From assembly GCA_022823145.1 (NCBI GenBank), contig JAJDXS010000023.1:1-64000 (forward strand): a stretch of 64,000 nucleotides of DNA, read 5' to 3'. A program made the position numbers and the translations under genes. This stretch comes from Gemmatimonadota bacterium. Lineage in GTDB: Bacteria > Gemmatimonadota > Gemmatimonadetes > Longimicrobiales > Gaopeijiaceae. Of this stretch, positions 1 to 8,129 are shown in pieces (position 1 is the stretch's first letter; each line of letters starts with the position of its first letter). The notes under the pieces were generated by a model that ran no database searches, was not told where the DNA came from, and saw only the letters and a list, made by a program, of their open reading frames with translations.

Positions 1-1738
1 GGGTGATGTTGTCGCGCACGGACGCGGAAAAGAGCACCACCTCCTGATCCACCATGGAGATGGACTGCCGCAACACCCCATCGGGAATCTCATCCCGCGG
101 ATGGCCATCGAAGAAGATGTCGCCCGACCAGGGCTGGTAGACACCGGCAATCAGACGCGCGAGGGTCGACTTGCCGGAACCGCTGGGACCGACCACGGCA
201 ACCCGCTGCCCCGGCCTGATCAGGAGGTTGAAGTCCTTGATCAGAGCCGGCCGGCTCCTGTTGAACCCGAAGGTGACATTTCGCAGCTCAAGCCGGCCGG
301 CGAGCTGAAGTTGGCCCTTGAAAGTCGGAATCGACTCCGACTGCGGACTTCGGCGGATGAGAGCGGGGTCCTCGGCGGTCCTGAAGATGTCTTCGAGTCG
401 CTGCAGATCGGTTTCGAGTGCCTGGCGCTTCTCGGCGAACTCCAGGAACCGCCCGACCGGCGCCAGAAACATCTCGCTCAGGATGTAGAATGCGACCAGC
501 GCTCCCAGAGTCATTTCGCCAGCCAGGACCATACTTCCGCCGATGCCCAGGATCGCCGCGCTTCGAAGGGCGACGATCAGACCCGGAAGTGCGGCATTGA
601 CCGAGCCCAGCTCCGAGTAGCGCTGGCGCGCATGCAGTTCGCGGGCCTGATGACCGCTCCAGCGCGAAAAGAAATGGTCGTCCGATCCCGTCATGCGCAG
701 GTTGTCGGCATGGTTCAGCATCTGCATGCCGATGCCGATCAGCAGTCCCTGTTCGCGCCTCATCGCCTGGCTGCGAACGGCTCTGAGGCCGTTCAGAAAG
801 TGCGCCAGCACACCATGTATGACGGCCAGAACGAGCACGACCAGTGTGAGCCGGACATCGTAGACCAACATGGCAATAAGCAGAACGGCGCTCATTCCCA
901 TGTCGATACCGAGTACAAGAAACTGCTCCGTCAGATTCCTGGCGATTCTGTCGATGGACGAGACTCGATCCGTCAGATCGCCCACGAGCCGGTGTTCGAA
1001 GAACTCCACCGGCAACCGCAGCATCCGCGACAGGCCTCGACTGTAGCCGGTCACCGAAATCCGGACTGCGAGTCGCTTCAGGAACCGGTGCTTGAGCAGG
1101 GACAGGATGTAGACGAGGCCGCCGCCGCCGAGCAGGGCTGTCACGATGCCGCCCCAGGGCCCCCGGTCTTCCAGCACATCGTCCACGAATACGCCCAGAG
1201 ATGCGGGAACAATGAGGGCCAGCAACGTCAACATGAGGCCGCATGCGATCACCCAGGTGAGCACACCCCATGAGCCGGCGAGCAGGGTGTGCAGCTGCCT
1301 GAAAAGTCCGGGCCGTTCACCGCCGGGTTTGAAGTCGCGTCCCGGCTTGAATCGGAGCGCAATTCCACTGTAGCCCCTGGTGAACTCCTCGGCGGACAGC
1401 TTGCGCCGTCCCGTGGACGGATCATTGAGATAGAAGTTGCGGCTGTCGAACCCCTCGACGACGAGGAAATGGCTGAACTGCCAGAATACGATCAGCGGCA
1501 ACGGCAGTTTTTTCAGTTGCTCGGCGCGCAAACTGAGTCCGTTGGATTCGAGACCATAGTGTCTCGCGGCGCGCACGATGCTCGCCGCACTGCTCCCGTC
1601 TCGACTCACTTCGCATTTTTCCCGCAGCTCGGTTAGCGGAACCCAGCGTCCGAAGTAGCCCAGGATGCTGCCGAGGCAGGCGGCACCGCATTCCGACGCA
1701 TGCACCTGCAGCACAATTGGCGTGGAAATCCTCTGCAT
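1..1738 (-). CDS. C39-peptidase/permease/ATPase exporter of the NHLP bacteriocin type, partial (3' end beyond window)
   Basis: I translated the minus strand directly, because this frame is open to the window edge. It starts at ATG 1738, two bases after the stop of the membrane fusion gene, and about 579 codons are present. The N-terminal domain is a C39 double-glycine leader peptidase: Gln11 (oxyanion), ECGAACLG with catalytic Cys17, [12 protein letters not shown] with His90, and NDPSTG with Asp106. A multi-helix ABC membrane domain follows, then an ATP-binding domain with Walker [14 protein letters not shown]. The text ends in the Q-loop region ([16 protein letters not shown]), so the signature and Walker B lie outside. 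Known role of the family: it cleaves the leader of a RiPP precursor and exports the core. The precursor at 7327-7578 is the likely substrate. Base composition looks less GC-rich than the rest of the window. Confidence 0.93.
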
Positions 1739-1740
1739 GC

Positions 1741-2316
1741 CTATGTTCGCCCCGGTCGCAGGAGGGCGATCGGAGACCGGGTGCCGACTTCGATGACGAT
1801 CCGGCATTCCCGGCCCGCTATGGAAGACAGGTCACGACTTTCGTCGAGCGCTATGTGGACGCGGTGGAATGACACCGGCGCTGCGGACTCGAAAGCCGCT
1901 GGAAGCTCGGGCAGGCGAACGGCGGCGATCGCCGCAATCTCTCCACCAATCGTCTCCGCTTCTCCCTCCGCCGCACCCAGCTCGATCACCGTGGGCATCC
2001 CGGCCGTGATCTCTGGCAGAATGCCGTTCTCGATCCAGACCAGCGCCTGCACGGACCGGGCGGCTTCGGACCGGGTTTCGCCGGGCTCGACGAGTACGCC
2101 GTCGATCGCAAAGCTGCGGGGTACGCTGCCGAACACGAGCCACGCGATCGAGGCGACCAACAGCAGAGCGATGACCGTGACAAGCAGCCGCTCTCGTGGC
2201 GTGGAAACGGTCAGCAGCCGGTCGAGTTGTTCGCGTTCTTCCTTTGCTTCGGCGACGGTATTGTGAAACGAATCAAATGGATTGTTGAACACGACTCTGC
2301 ACAGTCTCCTCATCAC
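1741..2316 (-). CDS. Compact HlyD-like membrane fusion/secretion protein of the NHLP export system
   Basis: 191 residues from a GTG at 2316; an ATG follows at 2313 and no strong ribosome site separates them. It has a cytoplasmic N-terminus with a charged [13 protein letters not shown] stretch, one membrane helix at about 45-63 ([20 protein letters not shown]), then a periplasmic beta-rich part. It ends in a segment typical of HlyD-type adaptors ([15 protein letters not shown]). Two bases separate its stop from the exporter ATG, so the two are co-translated partners. It is far shorter than the NHLP secretion proteins I know and has no visible coiled-coil hairpin or complete biotinyl-lipoyl domain. 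It may be a minimal adaptor, or a shortened one. The family assignment rests on context plus the C-terminal pattern. Confidence 0.75.
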
Positions 2317-2579
2317 GACCGGGCAAGGACCGACCGTTCTCGCCCGGTGCTTCGTGCGTTCTAGTGTCTTCTCCGGTTCCCATCGCCCAAACCTCGGCCT
2401 CGCCCTATTCCAATCTCTGCCCCCTCTCGTGTCCTGCTAAGCGTCAGGAGGGGCAGGTTTTCGGTAGTATAGCACCGTCAGGTGCACGGTGCAGACCTTT
2501 ACGCCGACGGCGATGACGCGAAGATCGTGTTAGCTTGCTGTCCGCCGCACTTTGAAGAATCTCGACAGTCGCCGGGCCT

Positions 2580-2585
2580 GGAGGT
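2580..2585 (+). promoter_or_regulatory. Ribosome binding site that sets the halogenase start
   Basis: GGAGGT lies 8 bases before a GTG at 2594. The longest frame would begin at a TTG at 2552, which has no such site and would add 14 residues before the FAD-binding strand. The GTG is therefore preferred. Confidence 0.65.
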
Positions 2586-2593
2586 CATTTGGG

Positions 2594-3868
2594 GTGATAC
2601 ACCCGGGCAGCGAATCCCTACGGAAGATCGCGGTTGTGGGGCGAGGGACCGCAGGGTCCCTGGCGGCCGCCAGCGTAACGCGTCTTCACCCCGACAGCGA
2701 CCACGAGTTGCACCACATATACGACTCGCGCATCCCGGTCATCGGAGTCGGTGAAGGCAGTTGGCCGAGCCTCGTTCGGGAACTGCAGCAGCTGACGAGT
2801 CTGCCGCACGACACAGTACAGCAGCGCCTGAGCGGGACTCGCAAGTACGGTGTCGCGTTCGAGGGATGGGGCCGGCGAGATCGAGACTTCACCCACTACT
2901 TCACGCCACAGCAGGTGTCCTACGCCTACCACCTGTCCGCCGACCTGATGGCGGACCTGCTCCACGAAGGGACGCGCGCGCGTCACATCGACGCGAAGGT
3001 GCTCGATATCACCAGGGTGAATGGCGGCGCACGAGTGGAATTCGAGGGCCGGGCGCCGGAATGCTACGACCTGGTGTTCGATGCCCGCGGGTTCCCCAGG
3101 GAACTCCATTCCGACCAGCACATCGACCTTCCCTTCATCCCCACCGATACGGCCGTCATTCGCCGCTGTCCGGCGGTCTTCAGCGAAGGGCAGGATGGGC
3201 CGGTACTCCAGCATACCTACACGCGCGCGGTTGCGCGTCCGCACGGCTGGGTATTCGTTATTCCGCTCACCGCGCACACTTCCTACGGGTACGTCTTCAA
3301 TGGCGACCTGTCGAGCCTGGTCGAAGTCGAATCGGATTTTGACAGACTCCTCGAGGCCGATGGCATATCGGAGTTTGAGCAGCGGGCGGTCATCGGGTTT
3401 CCAAACTTTGTCCACCGGCGGATCTACGACGGCGCAGTGGCCCGCATTGGCAACGCAGCGGCCTTCATGGAGCCCCTCGAGGCGACGGCCATCGTTTCCG
3501 CCCAATTGCAGATCGGGATGGTGCTCCGGACGCGCCTCGACCGTCCGCCGGAGCATCTCGAGCGCGACGCGCCCGTGGTCAATCGGTTCCTCATCAACAA
3601 TCTGCTCCGCTACGGCCTGTTCGTCGGCTGGCACTACTCGTGCGGCTCCAGGTACGACAGCGGATTCTGGCGCCATGCTCGTGACCGCGCCTGGCCGCTA
3701 CACCGGAAGGCGGCGGACCCGGAGGTGGTGGGGTGCTCCGCGCTCCATGAGTTCGACGAGATGATCGAACTGCTGAACCGATCCGTCATCGACCAGGAGG
3801 ACTGGCATCGGATGTGCGCGGTCCCTCTCACCTCCTATGCCCAGGTGTCTCAGGGTCTGGGCTGCTAG
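2594..3868 (+). CDS. Flavin-dependent halogenase, tryptophan-halogenase family, candidate peptidyl Trp halogenase
   Basis: 424 residues from GTG 2594. It shows the family landmarks in order: FAD-binding VVGRGTAGS (GxGxxG at 16-21), GVGEGSWPS at 51-59, GTRKYGVAFEGW with Lys84 at the position of the catalytic lysine of Trp halogenases, GWVFVIPL at 218-225 as a variant of the WxWxIP motif, and GNAAAFMEPLEATAI at 286-300. In this family FADH2 and O2 make HOCl or HOBr, which the lysine delivers to an indole. It is about 100 residues shorter than free-Trp halogenases such as PrnA. It sits between the RiPP exporter and a precursor whose last residue is its only Trp, so I infer a peptide substrate. 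It is transcribed toward the ABC ATPase; the two stops are 17 bases apart. No flavin reductase is visible nearby. Halide preference cannot be read from sequence. Confidence 0.9.
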   Translation: MIHPGSESLRKIAVVGRGTAGSLAAASVTRLHPDSDHELHHIYDSRIPVIGVGEGSWPSLVRELQQLTSLPHDTVQQRLSGTRKYGVAFEGWGRRDRDFTHYFTPQQVSYAYHLSADLMADLLHEGTRARHIDAKVLDITRVNGGARVEFEGRAPECYDLVFDARGFPRELHSDQHIDLPFIPTDTAVIRRCPAVFSEGQDGPVLQHTYTRAVARPHGWVFVIPLTAHTSYGYVFNGDLSSLVEVESDFDRLLEADGISEFEQRAVIGFPNFVHRRIYDGAVARIGNAAAFMEPLEATAIVSAQLQIGMVLRTRLDRPPEHLERDAPVVNRFLINNLLRYGLFVGWHYSCGSRYDSGFWRHARDRAWPLHRKAADPEVVGCSALHEFDEMIELLNRSVIDQEDWHRMCAVPLTSYAQVSQGLGC

Positions 3869-3885
3869 CTACCCGGAGCTGGTTG

Positions 3886-4581
3886 CTACGATCCGCGCTC
3901 GTCGTCACGCACGGCGCCGTCCACCATGCGGACGAGACGCCGGGACCGCTCCATGACGCGGCTGTCGTGGGTGGCGAAGACGAAGGTCACTCCGAGGTCG
4001 CGATTCAGCTCGCCCATGACATCGAGGAGCGCCTCGCTGGTGACCGAGTCGAGGTTCGCCGTCGGCTCGTCCGCGAGCACCAGGGCCGGACGGCCAGCCA
4101 CCGCACGCACGACGGCCACGCGCTGCTGCTGGCCGCCGGACAGCTTGCCGGGGCGCCGGTCTTCGAGCCCGTCCATTCCAGTCCGCGCAAAGAGTTCGCG
4201 GACCCGCGCCTGACGCTCCTCCGCATGCACGCCCTGGAGGAGCATCGGGAATTCCGCGTTCTCCAACGCCGTGAGCACGGGGAGCAGGTTATAGGCCTGG
4301 AAGACGAAGCCCACCTCCTTGAGCCGTAGCCGCGCCAAATCCCGGGTCGACATGCGGCTCACCTCGCGCCCGGCGACCCAGACCCGTCCCTTTGTGGGGC
4401 GCGTCAGGCCACCGATCAGATTCAGCAGCGTCGTCTTGCCGGAGCCCGACGGGCCCGCGAGCGCGGTGAACTCGCCCCGCTCTATGGTCAGGCTGACGTC
4501 GCGGACCGCCTCCACGGATTCAGCTTCCTGCTGGAAGACCTTCCAGACGCCGTCGGTCCGGGCGGCTGCCGTCTCGCTCAT
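3886..4581 (-). CDS. ABC transporter ATP-binding protein, LolD/MacB type
   Basis: 231 residues. The ATG at 4587 is only 3 bases from the GGAGG site, whereas the ATG at 4581 is 8-9 bases away, so I take 4581 (MSETAAART). Walker A is AGPSGSGKTT, the signature LSGGQQQRV, Walker B LVLADEPTANLD, and the switch His is in FATHDSRV. The ribosome site overlaps the stop of the upstream permease, so translation is coupled. With the two permeases it forms a complete LolCDE-like exporter or lipoprotein-release system. Its position inside the RiPP locus suggests export or self-protection, but a general envelope function is also possible. Confidence 0.92.
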   Translation of the reverse strand: MSETAAARTDGVWKVFQQEAESVEAVRDVSLTIERGEFTALAGPSGSGKTTLLNLIGGLTRPTKGRVWVAGREVSRMSTRDLARLRLKEVGFVFQAYNLLPVLTALENAEFPMLLQGVHAEERQARVRELFARTGMDGLEDRRPGKLSGGQQQRVAVVRAVAGRPALVLADEPTANLDSVTSEALLDVMGELNRDLGVTFVFATHDSRVMERSRRLVRMVDGAVRDDERGS

Positions 4582-4593
4582 TGCCATGACCTC

Positions 4594-5880
4594 CTACCGA
4601 TCGAACTTCATCGCCTCGGCAACGTCGACCCGGGCGGCGCGCAGCGCCGGATAGACCGAGGCCAGAATGCCAATGCCGACAATGAACGCGACAATCTGGA
4701 CGATGCGTCGCACCCCGAAGATCGGCACGATGATAGGGTCAACGGCGGTACCCGAGAATGTCAACTCGTCAATACCCTGCATGAAGACCGACGAGTCGAA
4801 CCCGTCGCCGAAGAAATACCAGGTGCCCAGGAGTCCCAGGCCGACGCCGACCAGCCCGCTGACCGCCGATAGCGTGAGGCCTTCGATGAGAACGACGGTG
4901 CCCGTCTGACCCGGCGTCAACCCCTGCGCCTGAAGCACGCCGAACTCGCGCTGGCGATGCATCACCGACATCAGCACGGTGTTGATGATCGCGAACGCGA
5001 TGATGACGAACAGGAACCCCTGAATCACGTAGTTGCCGAATTCGTCGATCGCGACCCCTGCCGCCAGGACAGGGTTGGCGTCGCGCCACTCTACGACGCG
5101 TGCCTCGCCCCGTTCCACCGGCCCCGCCAGCGCCCGCGCCAGGCGGTCGGCGACCCACCGTGTCCTGCCACTGCTTTGCAGCACGACCGCGACGTTGGTC
5201 ACGTCGCTCCCGGAGCCGAGCCACTCGCCGGCTGTCGCGAGCGTGATGTGGATCGTCGCCTGGTCGATGGAGGGCACGCGGCTGCGGAAGATCCCCACCA
5301 CGTTGAGCCGCTGCCCCGCAATGTCGCCATCGGCACCCTGCGCCTGCACGACGAAGCGCGATCCGACATCGAGTCCCAGGCTGCGGGCCAGATCGGCGCC
5401 GACATAGGCCGCCAGCCGATCATCGGGCTCGAGGTAGCGCCCTTCGATCACCCCATCGTCGATCATGCCGAACCCCGCTTCGGCGACGGGGTCGACCCCC
5501 ACGATCTGCGCCGGGCGCGCACCCGCCGCCGAACTCGCCAGCCCGTTGATGCCGAGCCTGGCCGACATGGTCACGACGTGCGGCGCGATCTCCGGAGAGG
5601 CCAGCGCCTGCGCCGCGGCGCGGCTGACGTCCGTCGGCAGCCGGTCGTCGATCTGACGGCGCAGCCGGTACTCGGGCCGTTCGATGGTCACGTGTCCGCT
5701 CCCCATGCGCACACCGGAATCGACCCACTGTTCGTGGCTGCCGTCGTCGATCGTGATCGACCAGGCCAGGAATGCGCCGCCGACGATCATCGCCGAGGCA
5801 GTCAGGACCGTGCGACGCAGATGACGGCGCAGGTTCCTGAGGGCGAGCCGGACCAGGACGCGCAGGAGCATTCCGTTCAC
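4594..5880 (-). CDS. ABC transporter permease, FtsX/LolCE-like
   Basis: 428 residues. A first helix follows a basic start (RRHLRRTVLTASAMIVGGAFLAW), then a large extracytoplasmic domain of about 220 residues, then three helices at the C-terminus. The FtsX-type landmark MSVMHRQREFGVLQAQGLTP lies after the second helix. It is the middle gene of a three-gene operon, with 6 bases between it and the upstream permease and 6 bases plus a shared ribosome site before the ATPase. It pairs with the product of 5887-7143 as a heterodimeric transmembrane unit. The substrate is not evident from sequence; a lipopeptide, lipoprotein or the mature RiPP are the options. Confidence 0.9.
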   Translation of the reverse strand: MNGMLLRVLVRLALRNLRRHLRRTVLTASAMIVGGAFLAWSITIDDGSHEQWVDSGVRMGSGHVTIERPEYRLRRQIDDRLPTDVSRAAAQALASPEIAPHVVTMSARLGINGLASSAAGARPAQIVGVDPVAEAGFGMIDDGVIEGRYLEPDDRLAAYVGADLARSLGLDVGSRFVVQAQGADGDIAGQRLNVVGIFRSRVPSIDQATIHITLATAGEWLGSGSDVTNVAVVLQSSGRTRWVADRLARALAGPVERGEARVVEWRDANPVLAAGVAIDEFGNYVIQGFLFVIIAFAIINTVLMSVMHRQREFGVLQAQGLTPGQTGTVVLIEGLTLSAVSGLVGVGLGLLGTWYFFGDGFDSSVFMQGIDELTFSGTAVDPIIVPIFGVRRIVQIVAFIVGIGILASVYPALRAARVDVAEAMKFDR

Positions 5881-5886
5881 GGGCTG

Positions 5887-7143
5887 CTATAGTCCCGACA
5901 GAGTGTCGGCAGGCGGCACCCGCGCCGCACGGATTGCCGGGTAGAGGGCGGAGACGAGTGCCGTGACGATCAGGCCGATCGTCGCCCAGGTCCACGCCGG
6001 CACGTTGGTCCCCACCCGGAGACTCGGCGTCAGCAGGACGCCCTCGACGGTGAGGTTTCCGAAGAGCCATCCGATGTCGGGCGGCGCCGTGGAAAACCAG
6101 ACCAACAGCGGCGCCGTGACGGCGGTCCCCAGGGCCAGCCCGATGAAGCCGGTCGCGACCGCCTCGGACAGCACCGTGCCCACCACGGACCGCGGCGATG
6201 CGCCCATCGCCAGCATGACGGCGAACTCGCGGCGGCGTTCGAAGGTGGCCATCAGCGTCGTGTTGGCGATGCCGAAGCTGGCGACTGAAAAGATGAGGAC
6301 GATGAAGATCCAGTACATCGCATCGGCGAGCGCGACATACTGGGCAAGCACCGGATTGAGCTCCGTCCACGGCGCGACCAACATCGCCCGCTCGGGGGCT
6401 CCAAGGGTGGCTGCGAGGCGGGTCGCGGTCACGGCGGCTTGCGACGGATCTTCAGTGCTGATTGCGATTTCGTGGACCCGATCCGGATCGAGGACCACGA
6501 GCGTCTGAAGGTCAGCGACCGGCATGACCATGGTGCCGGCATCGAACTCGAGCAGGCCGGTCCGGAAGATGCCGGTGACGGTGTACAGGTCGTTGCCCAT
6601 CGAGCCGTCCGCCGCCGAGGCGACGACGACGACTTCGTCCCCGACGCTCAGCCCGAGCTGCCGCGCCATCTCGTCTCCCACAACGGCTTCGTGTCGGTCG
6701 GTGACAGGCAGGCGACCCGCTGCCAGGGGATCCAGAAAACGTGTCAGCGCCACCTCGCGCTCGGGGTCGACGCCGAGCAGAGTGCCGGCCGATGTCGCTT
6801 CGCCGGAACTCACGAGCCCACTCGCGTACACGCGCGGGGCGGCGGTCACGACCGAGGGATCGGCCTCGATGGCGCGCAGGATCTCCGCCACGTCGGCACC
6901 CTCGCGTCCGCCAATGGTCTCGTAAAGGCTGCGCTCGGGCCGGTAGTCGGCATCGTGGATCTCGATCTGCCCACTGACGAGCGATGTGGCGCTCTCGACG
7001 AGTTCCGTCGAGACCCCCTCGGCCCAGCCGACCATGAACACCACGGAAAAGTAGCCGACCCCAAGGCCGAGCGCGGTGAGAACGGTTCGCTTCCGGTTAC
7101 GACCGAGGTTTCGCCACCCGATTCGCCACAACCGGCCCGTCAC
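5887..7143 (-). CDS. ABC transporter permease, FtsX/LolCE-like
   Basis: 418 residues from GTG 7143, preceded by GGAGG with 9 bases spacing. The basic start WRNLGRNRKRTVLTALGLGV leads into the first helix, followed by a periplasmic domain and three C-terminal helices. The landmark MATFERRREFAVMLAMGASP is typical of LolCE/MacB-like permeases. It is the first gene of the transporter operon and lies 183 bases downstream of the RiPP precursor on the same strand, so read-through from the precursor promoter is plausible. No terminator-like hairpin with a T-run was seen in the interval. The last residues (AARVPPADTLSGL) match the usual end of this family. Confidence 0.9.
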   Translation of the reverse strand: MTGRLWRIGWRNLGRNRKRTVLTALGLGVGYFSVVFMVGWAEGVSTELVESATSLVSGQIEIHDADYRPERSLYETIGGREGADVAEILRAIEADPSVVTAAPRVYASGLVSSGEATSAGTLLGVDPEREVALTRFLDPLAAGRLPVTDRHEAVVGDEMARQLGLSVGDEVVVVASAADGSMGNDLYTVTGIFRTGLLEFDAGTMVMPVADLQTLVVLDPDRVHEIAISTEDPSQAAVTATRLAATLGAPERAMLVAPWTELNPVLAQYVALADAMYWIFIVLIFSVASFGIANTTLMATFERRREFAVMLAMGASPRSVVGTVLSEAVATGFIGLALGTAVTAPLLVWFSTAPPDIGWLFGNLTVEGVLLTPSLRVGTNVPAWTWATIGLIVTALVSALYPAIRAARVPPADTLSGL

Positions 7144-7326
7144 GCGTCGCTACCTCCCGCGCTGCAAGGTCCGGAATGACCCCATCCACGATCCGGGACA
7201 GGGACGGCGTTCAACCAGCCCTTGAGACCCAACGCACGGCGCGGGCAACTGCACGCAGGCGACGTTTCCGCGAGGGTGGGAGCGAAGGATCTCGAATGTC
7301 CGTCGACTACTCGCCGACCATGGGGG

Positions 7327-7578
7327 CTACCAGCAGCAGCAGAGGCCGGCCGAGATGGCTTCGAGCTGTTCCTCAGTGATGTTCGGATCCGGCGGCAACG
7401 CGAGATGCACCGTCTGCATGTTGCTCTCATGGACCATGACATTCATCGAGTCGGGAATCGTAATGCCCAATTCGCCACTGATCGTGGTCTTTGGATCCGC
7501 AAGAAGCCGTTGCCGGAAGTCCGTGTCCAAGGCGGACTTCTCAACAATCTGCTGCAACATTTCGTCTCCGCTTCTCAT
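7327..7578 (-). CDS. Proteusin-type RiPP precursor with nitrile-hydratase-like leader and core Leu-Cys-Cys-Cys-Trp
   Basis: 83 residues from ATG 7578, chosen because AGGAGG lies 6 bases upstream; the longer frame from 7620 has no such site. Residues 1-78 resemble the NHLP leader: an amphipathic N-terminal helix (EMLQQIVEKSALDTDFRQRL), LLADP, the strand region GITIPDSMNVMVHES, LALPPDP, and the final helix NITEEQLEAISAG. The Ala-Gly at 77-78 matches the cleavage site used by C39 peptidases. What remains is Leu79, Cys80, Cys81, Cys82, Trp83. The same locus encodes a C39 exporter and a Trp-type halogenase. The precursor identity is well supported; the modifications are inference. No second precursor was found. 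Confidence 0.9.
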   Translation of the reverse strand: MRSGDEMLQQIVEKSALDTDFRQRLLADPKTTISGELGITIPDSMNVMVHESNMQTVHLALPPDPNITEEQLEAISAGLCCCW

Positions 7579-7584
7579 GGCATT

Positions 7585-7590
7585 CCTCCT
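7585..7590 (-). promoter_or_regulatory. Strong ribosome binding site of the RiPP precursor
   Basis: AGGAGG on the minus strand with a 6-base spacer to ATG 7578. It fixes the start of the precursor and is a near-perfect anti-16S match, in line with the high expression expected of a substrate peptide. Confidence 0.8.
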
Positions 7591-8129
7591 GTTGGTGCTG
7601 AGTCGTGCGACATGGGTCACGCTCTAACCTAACGATAGACGACACGCTCCTGGCAAGCAATCATGGTCGTTTACAACTGCACACCGTCGGCGAGCCGCAA
7701 GACAATGACTGGGGTCGGCCGGCGCGAACCGCTCAGTCCGCAGCCCCGCCGGCCAAGAGCGGCCGGCAACTGGCAGTTCGTACCGCTCCAACTCCCCAAG
7801 TGTTTCCCGCTCTTCGGTTTACCCGCCGTGGGCGCGTCCGGAGATCCCGTGATCTGGCCGGCATCTTGCGATCTGTCTTCAGGCCGGTGAACGGCGTGGA
7901 CTCTGCAGTTGCGCGAGTCGCGCTCCAGCGCGTGAACCGCCCTCCTTCCGTTTTCAGGGACCTCCCCCCGGAGTATCGTCCTCACCTGCGATACCCCCTC
8001 ATCGGCGAGCTGGCGGGCACATGTCCGGGGTCGGGGTCCGGTTGTGGCGCTCGCCCGCGCACCGTCTATTGGGCGGGTCGATCCGCCACCGGGCCGGCAG
8101 CCACTGCCACCCCAACCGGAGCAGCCATC
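7591..8129. other. Gene-poor interval between RiPP precursor and dipeptidase
   Basis: No convincing gene is seen on either strand; the open frames are low-complexity shadows. It must hold the promoter of the precursor (leftward) and of the dipeptidase (rightward). Visible structure: a perfect 7-bp inverted repeat GCCGGCC/GGCCGGC with a 6-base loop at 7748-7767, with no T-run, and a 6-bp inverted repeat GTATCG/CGATAC with a 10-base spacer at 7973-7994 that could be an operator. A weak -35-like TTGCCA on the minus strand lies at 7651-7656. None is strong enough to call alone. Confidence 0.5.

Follow-up and report, generated by a model that had tools for sequence, protein, structure and literature searches.

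The left end of the stretch analysed here (the window: 64,000 nucleotides of a Gemmatimonadota genome, contig C41:1-64000) almost certainly carries an srp-type proteusin cluster, another copy of a known and widespread pathway to a ribosomally synthesized and post-translationally modified peptide (RiPP). In translation the precursor ends with ...EAISAGLCCCW, and its core LCCCW is identical to that of SrpE (PMC10858898, PMC10286304). The flavin-dependent halogenase has a lysine at residue 84, the number of the essential lysine of SrpI (PMC10858898). The parts of the system encoded in the window are the following.

7327..7578, minus strand: SrpE-like NHLP (proteusin) precursor, 83 amino acids (aa) from ATG; TIGR03793 at 68.6 bits (cut-off 50.9)
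7330..7344, minus strand: core peptide LCCCW, read from the translation, downstream of an Ala-Gly cleavage-type site
2594..3868, plus strand: SrpI-like flavin-dependent peptidyl-Trp halogenase, a predicted 6-brominase; PF04820 (Trp_halogenase) at 147.7 bits (cut-off 21)
2..1807, minus strand: C39-peptidase NHLP exporter of the NHLM_micro_ABC1 type; PF03412, PF00664 and PF00005; C-terminal part on contig C12
1741..2316, minus strand: short HlyD-like membrane-fusion protein for NHLP export; TIGR03794 (NHLM_micro_HlyD), a weak N-terminal match at 28.1 bits (cut-off 156)

An srp cluster that probably continues on a second contig

An earlier note on this DNA had predicted an NHLP-leader precursor, a peptide-directed Trp halogenase with Lys84, a C39-peptidase exporter at the left edge and a membrane fusion protein, and had taken the locus for kin of the sponge clusters with Trp-6 bromination and azoline formation. 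Each part is present and the kinship holds, although the exporter extends over 2–1807 on the minus strand and not 1–1738, and the family match of the membrane fusion protein is weak. The halogenase comprises 424 aa with a GTG start. The two best PF04820 matches of the genome are two pieces of this one protein, and two weaker matches lie on other contigs. Residues 66–72 of the precursor leader, NITEEQL, occupy the same register as the docking segment NLTEEQL of SrpE, which contains an LXXXXL motif (PMC10858898), but have Ile where that motif has its first Leu. The C39 peptidase domain of the exporter scores 121.9 bits; the best NCBIfam match of this gene, NHLM_micro_ABC1 (TIGR03796), reaches 596.9 bits and stays below its cut-off of 853, the gene being truncated at the contig end.

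Contrary to what had been supposed, the cluster is not a compact one. Since the window is C41:1-64000, its base 1 is a contig end, and the proposed inspection of the region to its left leads to an overlapping contig that carries further cluster genes. Exactly 107 bases at the right end of this contig, C12 (107,355 bases), recur at the left end of C41, and the two ends can be placed in register on relatives such as L010 and L012, which indicates that the cluster most likely continues in stretch L089 (C12:95000-107355). L089 holds the genes for a second NHLP exporter, for a protein with an NHLP-like domain at its start (about 433 aa; the 433-aa protein), for YcaO, for a protein without a family match (about 370 aa; the 372-aa protein) and for an AlkB-like protein. 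The YcaO gene (C12:100368-101381) is the sole YcaO match in the genome and has an NHLP-type sequence nearby. Its orthologue in L012 contains a SagD-type domain (272 bits, cut-off 219) and a TOMM leader-binding domain (147 bits, cut-off 37), so a YcaO cyclodehydratase most likely belongs to this cluster, as it does to the srp clusters of sponge microbiomes. The latter share with our locus the LCCCW core, the NHLP leader with a putative docking segment at 66–72, the halogenase lysine, a YcaO protein with a RiPP leader-binding domain and the spread across several phyla; they differ in having Leu67 in the leader where the window has Ile67, and in lacking the LolCDE-like genes inserted here between halogenase and precursor. 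Neither the short core nor the gene order marks a new variant, as the earlier note had suggested: the core is that of SrpE, and the order differs between loci and is therefore not diagnostic.

By analogy with the published system, the SrpE-like precursor would be bound via its NHLP leader, the YcaO cyclodehydratase encoded on C12 would convert the three core cysteines to thiazolines, the SrpI-like halogenase would brominate the C-terminal Trp, and the C39 exporter would cleave after Ala-Gly and secrete the product. We infer this chemistry from the work on SrpE, SrpI and SrpC, and from the published srp clusters a sponge origin of the genome. SrpC makes three thiazolines in SrpE, and SrpI brominates the C-terminal Trp at indole C6 in a leader-dependent manner (PMC10286304, PMC10858898). 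SrpI is termed an obligate brominase in a review (PMC12615548), so the halogenation here should be bromination. MibH, the NAI-107 chlorinase, is likewise a flavin-dependent halogenase that acts on a RiPP Trp, but it works on a lanthipeptide after leader removal, whereas SrpI requires the leader (PMC10858898, PMC10286304).

Co-variation of the halogenase with the core tryptophan

When genome contigs were scanned with the halogenase, 159 loci were obtained, and the best 80 of them (75–98% identity) were analysed; 79 of the 80 records are titled metagenome-assembled genome, and the remaining one is also a bin. By title, these loci belong to Pseudomonadota (40), Acidobacteriota (14), Gemmatimonadota (11), Latescibacterota (5), Nitrospinota (3), Nitrospirota (2), Myxococcota (2) and Binatota (1), with two assigned to no group. 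The rows closest to the window carry Gemmatimonadota in their titles, which is the basis for placing its genome in that phylum. The 85 stretches compared consist of these loci together with L089, L092–L094 and the window; L092, L093 and L094 were found to sit within L009, L010 and L011. HlyD-like proteins match in 49 of the 85.

Precursor matches were counted at 55% identity or more, and weaker ones were discarded. All 40 precursors whose end fell in a stretch (the window and 39 loci) end with AGLCCCW; one of these, in L015, retains only the last 33 residues, and the match in L076, which is cut off, stands outside the 40. At 41 loci no precursor could be read nearby; a search of their whole genomes gave a full-length match in 35. 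The end was read in 30 of these and is LCCCW in every case, while the other five matched to residue 83; more distant NHLP matches are excluded from these reads. None of the halogenase-bearing relatives whose precursors were read has thus lost the C-terminal Trp, and because a near-identical precursor recurs in several phyla the observation is not due to chance.

The halogenase tree requires 13 phylum changes against a minimum of seven, and shuffles average 35.2, which indicates that the tree mostly follows phylum; it was therefore not accepted as clear evidence of recent transfer between phyla. Two Gemmatimonadota rows fall within Latescibacterota and one Latescibacterota row within Acidobacteriota, and these bins may be contaminated. 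Spread by plasmids was also rejected: in all 65 plasmid records with a match, the best match to the halogenase stays below 60% identity. Separately, 21 of the 89 stretches examined for it encode, close to the srp halogenase, a conserved protein that weakly matches DUF1302 (for example, L086:8477-9700).

A natural comparison comes from a phylum sample of 395 genomes, which includes that of the window. The pattern AGLCCC-X-stop occurs in 32 genomes: 22 have LCCCW, seven have LCCCG and three have others. A precursor protein match backs all seven LCCCG genomes and 21 of the 22 LCCCW genomes, with G239 identified by the pattern alone; the pattern matches in G270, G226 and G310 have no precursor match around them and were therefore taken as chance and dropped. 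The searches for the halogenase and for the 372-aa and 433-aa proteins scored only the few best candidates in each genome. A strong halogenase match is present in 21 of the 395 genomes, with weak matches in G390 and G151 left uncounted. The halogenase occurs in 18 of 22 LCCCW genomes and in none of the seven LCCCG genomes (Fisher p = 2.1e-4, not corrected for kinship), and both cores are found inside the genus groups g1, g12 and g78.

The LCCCG loci L155–L158, L191 and L192 contain the YcaO gene (partial in L157), a protein of the 372-aa type, the precursor, the HlyD-like protein and both exporters, whereas neither the halogenase nor the 433-aa protein was found in these six; L193 is truncated because its contig is short. 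The only matches to the 433-aa profile in the LCCCG loci fall on the NHLP part of the precursor. Other cores, LCCCL (L212:10052-10588) and WCCCGQ (L213:1682-2032), occur in stretches with a protein of the 372-aa type.

Several observations weigh against the assignment to srp and the link between halogenase and Trp. The Leu67Ala substitution in the SrpE leader reduced bromination (PMC10858898), and the window leader has Ile at this position, which is the common form among its relatives. The likeness to SrpI and SrpE was judged from the published core, motif and lysine. Four LCCCW genomes (G014, G018, G140 and G169) gave no halogenase match and no 433-aa protein; of these, only G018 has a 372-aa match, which is interrupted by two in-frame stops, an extra TGA among them. 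The precursors of the four sit either 60–470 bases away from the end of a contig or on a contig of just 5.4 kb, so the absence may reflect incomplete assembly or true loss. Conversely, the halogenase genomes G280, G337 and G341 gave no match to the LCCCX pattern, and the whole-genome search returned no full-length precursor in six of the 41 genomes described above. Because the relatives are metagenome-assembled genomes or bins, gaps and contamination are possible throughout.

The 433-aa and 372-aa proteins and a proposed terpenoid branch

Two cluster proteins encoded on C12 suggest that the srp product may be not only brominated and thiazoline-containing but also terpenoid-modified. The first of them is the 433-aa protein.

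L089:7552-9288 (C12), stop-to-stop frame: NHLP leader-like domain joined to a class II terpene cyclase fold

In a profile comparison with the PDB, its N-terminal NHLP-like domain matches nitrile hydratase and 8tb1, a leader structure based on MprE7. Of 41 rows found for this protein, 28 were used in the model alignment and 21 in the alignment of the cyclase domain. The AlphaFold2 model (mean pLDDT 77.6) matches AsDMS/drimenol synthase best in Foldseek (E 5e-13 to 2e-11), followed by MstE and squalene-hopene cyclases; weaker matches at E about 1e-4 include unrelated toroids such as complement C3/C4. DxDD/DxDTT-type motifs have a role in class II terpene cyclases. All 21 aligned rows of the 433-aa protein share a DLDS motif, which pairs with DLDT in drimenol synthase 9mhs and with DADS in 8paj, so that both the toroid fold and a motif of this type are found. 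Distant homologues contain DLDDT (L207) or EVDST, in which the first Asp is absent (L205 and L206). The fusion is possibly an enzyme with a built-in leader mimic.

The 433-aa protein co-varies with the halogenase and the core Trp. It is strong in 21 of the 395 genomes, 20 of which have the halogenase; G337 has the halogenase only, and G012, whose contig ends within the cluster, has the cyclase only. Three much weaker matches per profile were left uncounted (G044, G216 and G223; G040, G044 and G050). Among the first 50 of the 80 halogenase genomes by locus number, the 433-aa protein is present in 48 and the 372-aa protein in 46; to judge from identical coordinates, about eight of these 50 repeat genomes of the 395 sample.

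For the 372-aa protein, NCBIfam gave no match, Pfam none that was meaningful and the PDB sequences none up to E 1; sequence homology to a known ABBA-type (alpha-beta-beta-alpha) prenyltransferase was accordingly not found. Its AlphaFold2 model, based on 23 of 29 rows found (pLDDT 87.4, pTM 0.87), repeats the alpha-beta-beta-alpha order of such a barrel. Of 55 PDB matches in Foldseek at E ≤0.001, the 50 listed are all aromatic/indole or RiPP-type prenyltransferases, including the cyanobactin enzyme PatF, which we take to share the ABBA fold. The barrel is thus that of a model and not of a structure, and its matches are modest (E 3.7e-5 to 7e-4, TM-scores 0.36–0.52). The protein is strong in 22 of the 395 genomes, 20 of them with the halogenase (the others are G012 and G018), and a weaker match (E 6e-80 to 3e-91) marks exactly the seven LCCCG genomes. 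An AlkB-like hydroxylase (PDB 8f6t, E 1.5e-52) is encoded in 35 of the 80 stretches as well as in L089, L155–L158 and L196; it was not found in the LCCCG stretches L191–L193.

Distant homologues of the 433-aa and 372-aa proteins are adjacent in a near-identical NHLP cluster of two genomes (L205:9172-11258 and L206:2285-4371), in which no YcaO or srp-type halogenase match was found. This cluster also has NHLP exporters and a precursor ending with GIAPTDDSY. In L208 and L211 a 372-aa homologue is paired with a distant halogenase; at L208:4507-8746 an NHLP precursor ending with GIGDIDTW lies by this pair, and the locus is a candidate halogenated proteusin.

From these predicted folds, an ABBA-type prenyltransferase and an NHLP-fused class II terpene cyclase would add and cyclise an isoprenoid, a step that stands outside the high confidence placed in the srp assignment. 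In the full form of this proposal, which we advance tentatively and rate somewhat below an even chance, the trithiazoline 6-bromo-Trp pentapeptide would be prenylated, cyclised and often oxidised by the AlkB-like enzyme; halogenase, cyclase and Trp would form one module, and the LCCCG clusters would be the form without it. The alternative, which we place close to an even chance, is that the 372-aa protein is an accessory ABBA-like barrel and the 433-aa protein an inactive alpha/alpha-toroid scaffold with an NHLP mimic, so that the product is the brominated trithiazoline peptide only; this opposes the terpenoid branch and not the srp identity of the cluster. The family-less sequence of the 372-aa protein and its modest fold matches, of which the best is E 3.7e-5, are consistent with this alternative, as are the non-enzyme toroids among the weaker matches of the 433-aa protein and the Asp missing from the motif in L205/L206. 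The retention of the prenyltransferase-like gene in the Trp-less LCCCG clusters also speaks for this alternative and against the simplest terpenoid picture, as the acceptor need not then be Trp. Against it, every listed fold match of the 372-aa protein is a prenyltransferase, the top matches of the 433-aa protein are terpene cyclases whose DLDT aligns with its invariant DLDS, the pair recurs side by side in a second NHLP cluster, and the mpp RiPP cluster unites a halogenase, an ABBA prenyltransferase, a terpene synthase and an oxygenase.

Other readings, precedents and the predicted product

A LolCDE-like transporter separates the halogenase from the precursor in the window and was judged to lie outside the system.

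3886..7143, minus strand: LolD/LolC/LolE-like ABC transporter

It is very improbable that this transporter marks a new srp variant, for example as a second route of export or as an immunity route. Its position in the window, the Lol genes beside the halogenase in five genomes of the same lineage (L009, L011 and L014–L016) and a LolE gene that also adjoins the precursor in another genome (L159) favour such a role. However, LolC and LolE both match in only eight of the 85 stretches, which represent six genomes, all of the same lineage (L092 repeats L009, and L094 repeats L011), and L012 and L013 of this lineage have no Lol genes, with 68 and 135 bases between precursor and halogenase; the cluster, moreover, already has two NHLP exporters. 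The LolCDE genes look like a lineage-specific insert, and neither their membership in the cluster nor the added part proposed in the earlier note could be upheld.

The last reading, that the halogenase acts on free tryptophan or another indole and that the adjacent precursor is incidental, is suggested by its PDB sequence relatives, which include free-Trp halogenases such as PrnA and RebH, but we rejected it as scarcely credible: precursor and halogenase occur together in several phyla, all 70 precursor ends read from genomes with the halogenase (the window included) have the C-terminal Trp, the search gave no halogenase in the seven genomes where Gly replaces Trp, and published SrpI needs the leader and does not accept free Trp, yet brominates free indole at position 3 (PMC10286304).

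The assignment to srp is therefore retained, and the closest precedent for a terpenoid branch is the mpp cluster of Moorena producens (MppE, MppI, MppC, MppD and MppG), which has the enzyme set proposed here for srp: an SrpI-like halogenase, an ABBA prenyltransferase, a terpene synthase and an oxygenase. The prenyltransferase geranylates a core Trp in a leader-dependent manner (PMC11791876, PMC12715784). The mpp system differs from srp in its Nif11-type leader, the lanthionine rings made by MppM and the core ACWRWSG. This precedent makes the srp terpenoid branch plausible and also less unprecedented. PalX/PalQ of Paenibacillus alvei, in which a C-terminal Trp is prenylated, resembles srp in its NHLP precursor with a conserved C-terminal Trp; PalQ, however, belongs to the isoprene synthase superfamily and not to the ABBA type, and the description of the three-gene cluster names no halogenase or YcaO protein. 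In the accessible portions of the open-access literature we found no description of an srp prenyltransferase, terpene cyclase or LCCCG core, and no report of the final srp product. New here are the proposed terpenoid branch and the natural comparison between LCCCG and LCCCW; the srp system itself is known.

The calculated [M+H]+ of the brominated trithiazoline peptide is 651.09, and those with a C10, C15 or C20 isoprenoid are 787.21, 855.28 and 923.34. If the terpenoid enzymes are what their predicted folds suggest, the mass of the product would be far from 651.09, so that the product could go undetected in a search aimed at the simple peptide, and a terpene cyclase that carries its own leader-like domain would also be unusual among RiPP enzymes.

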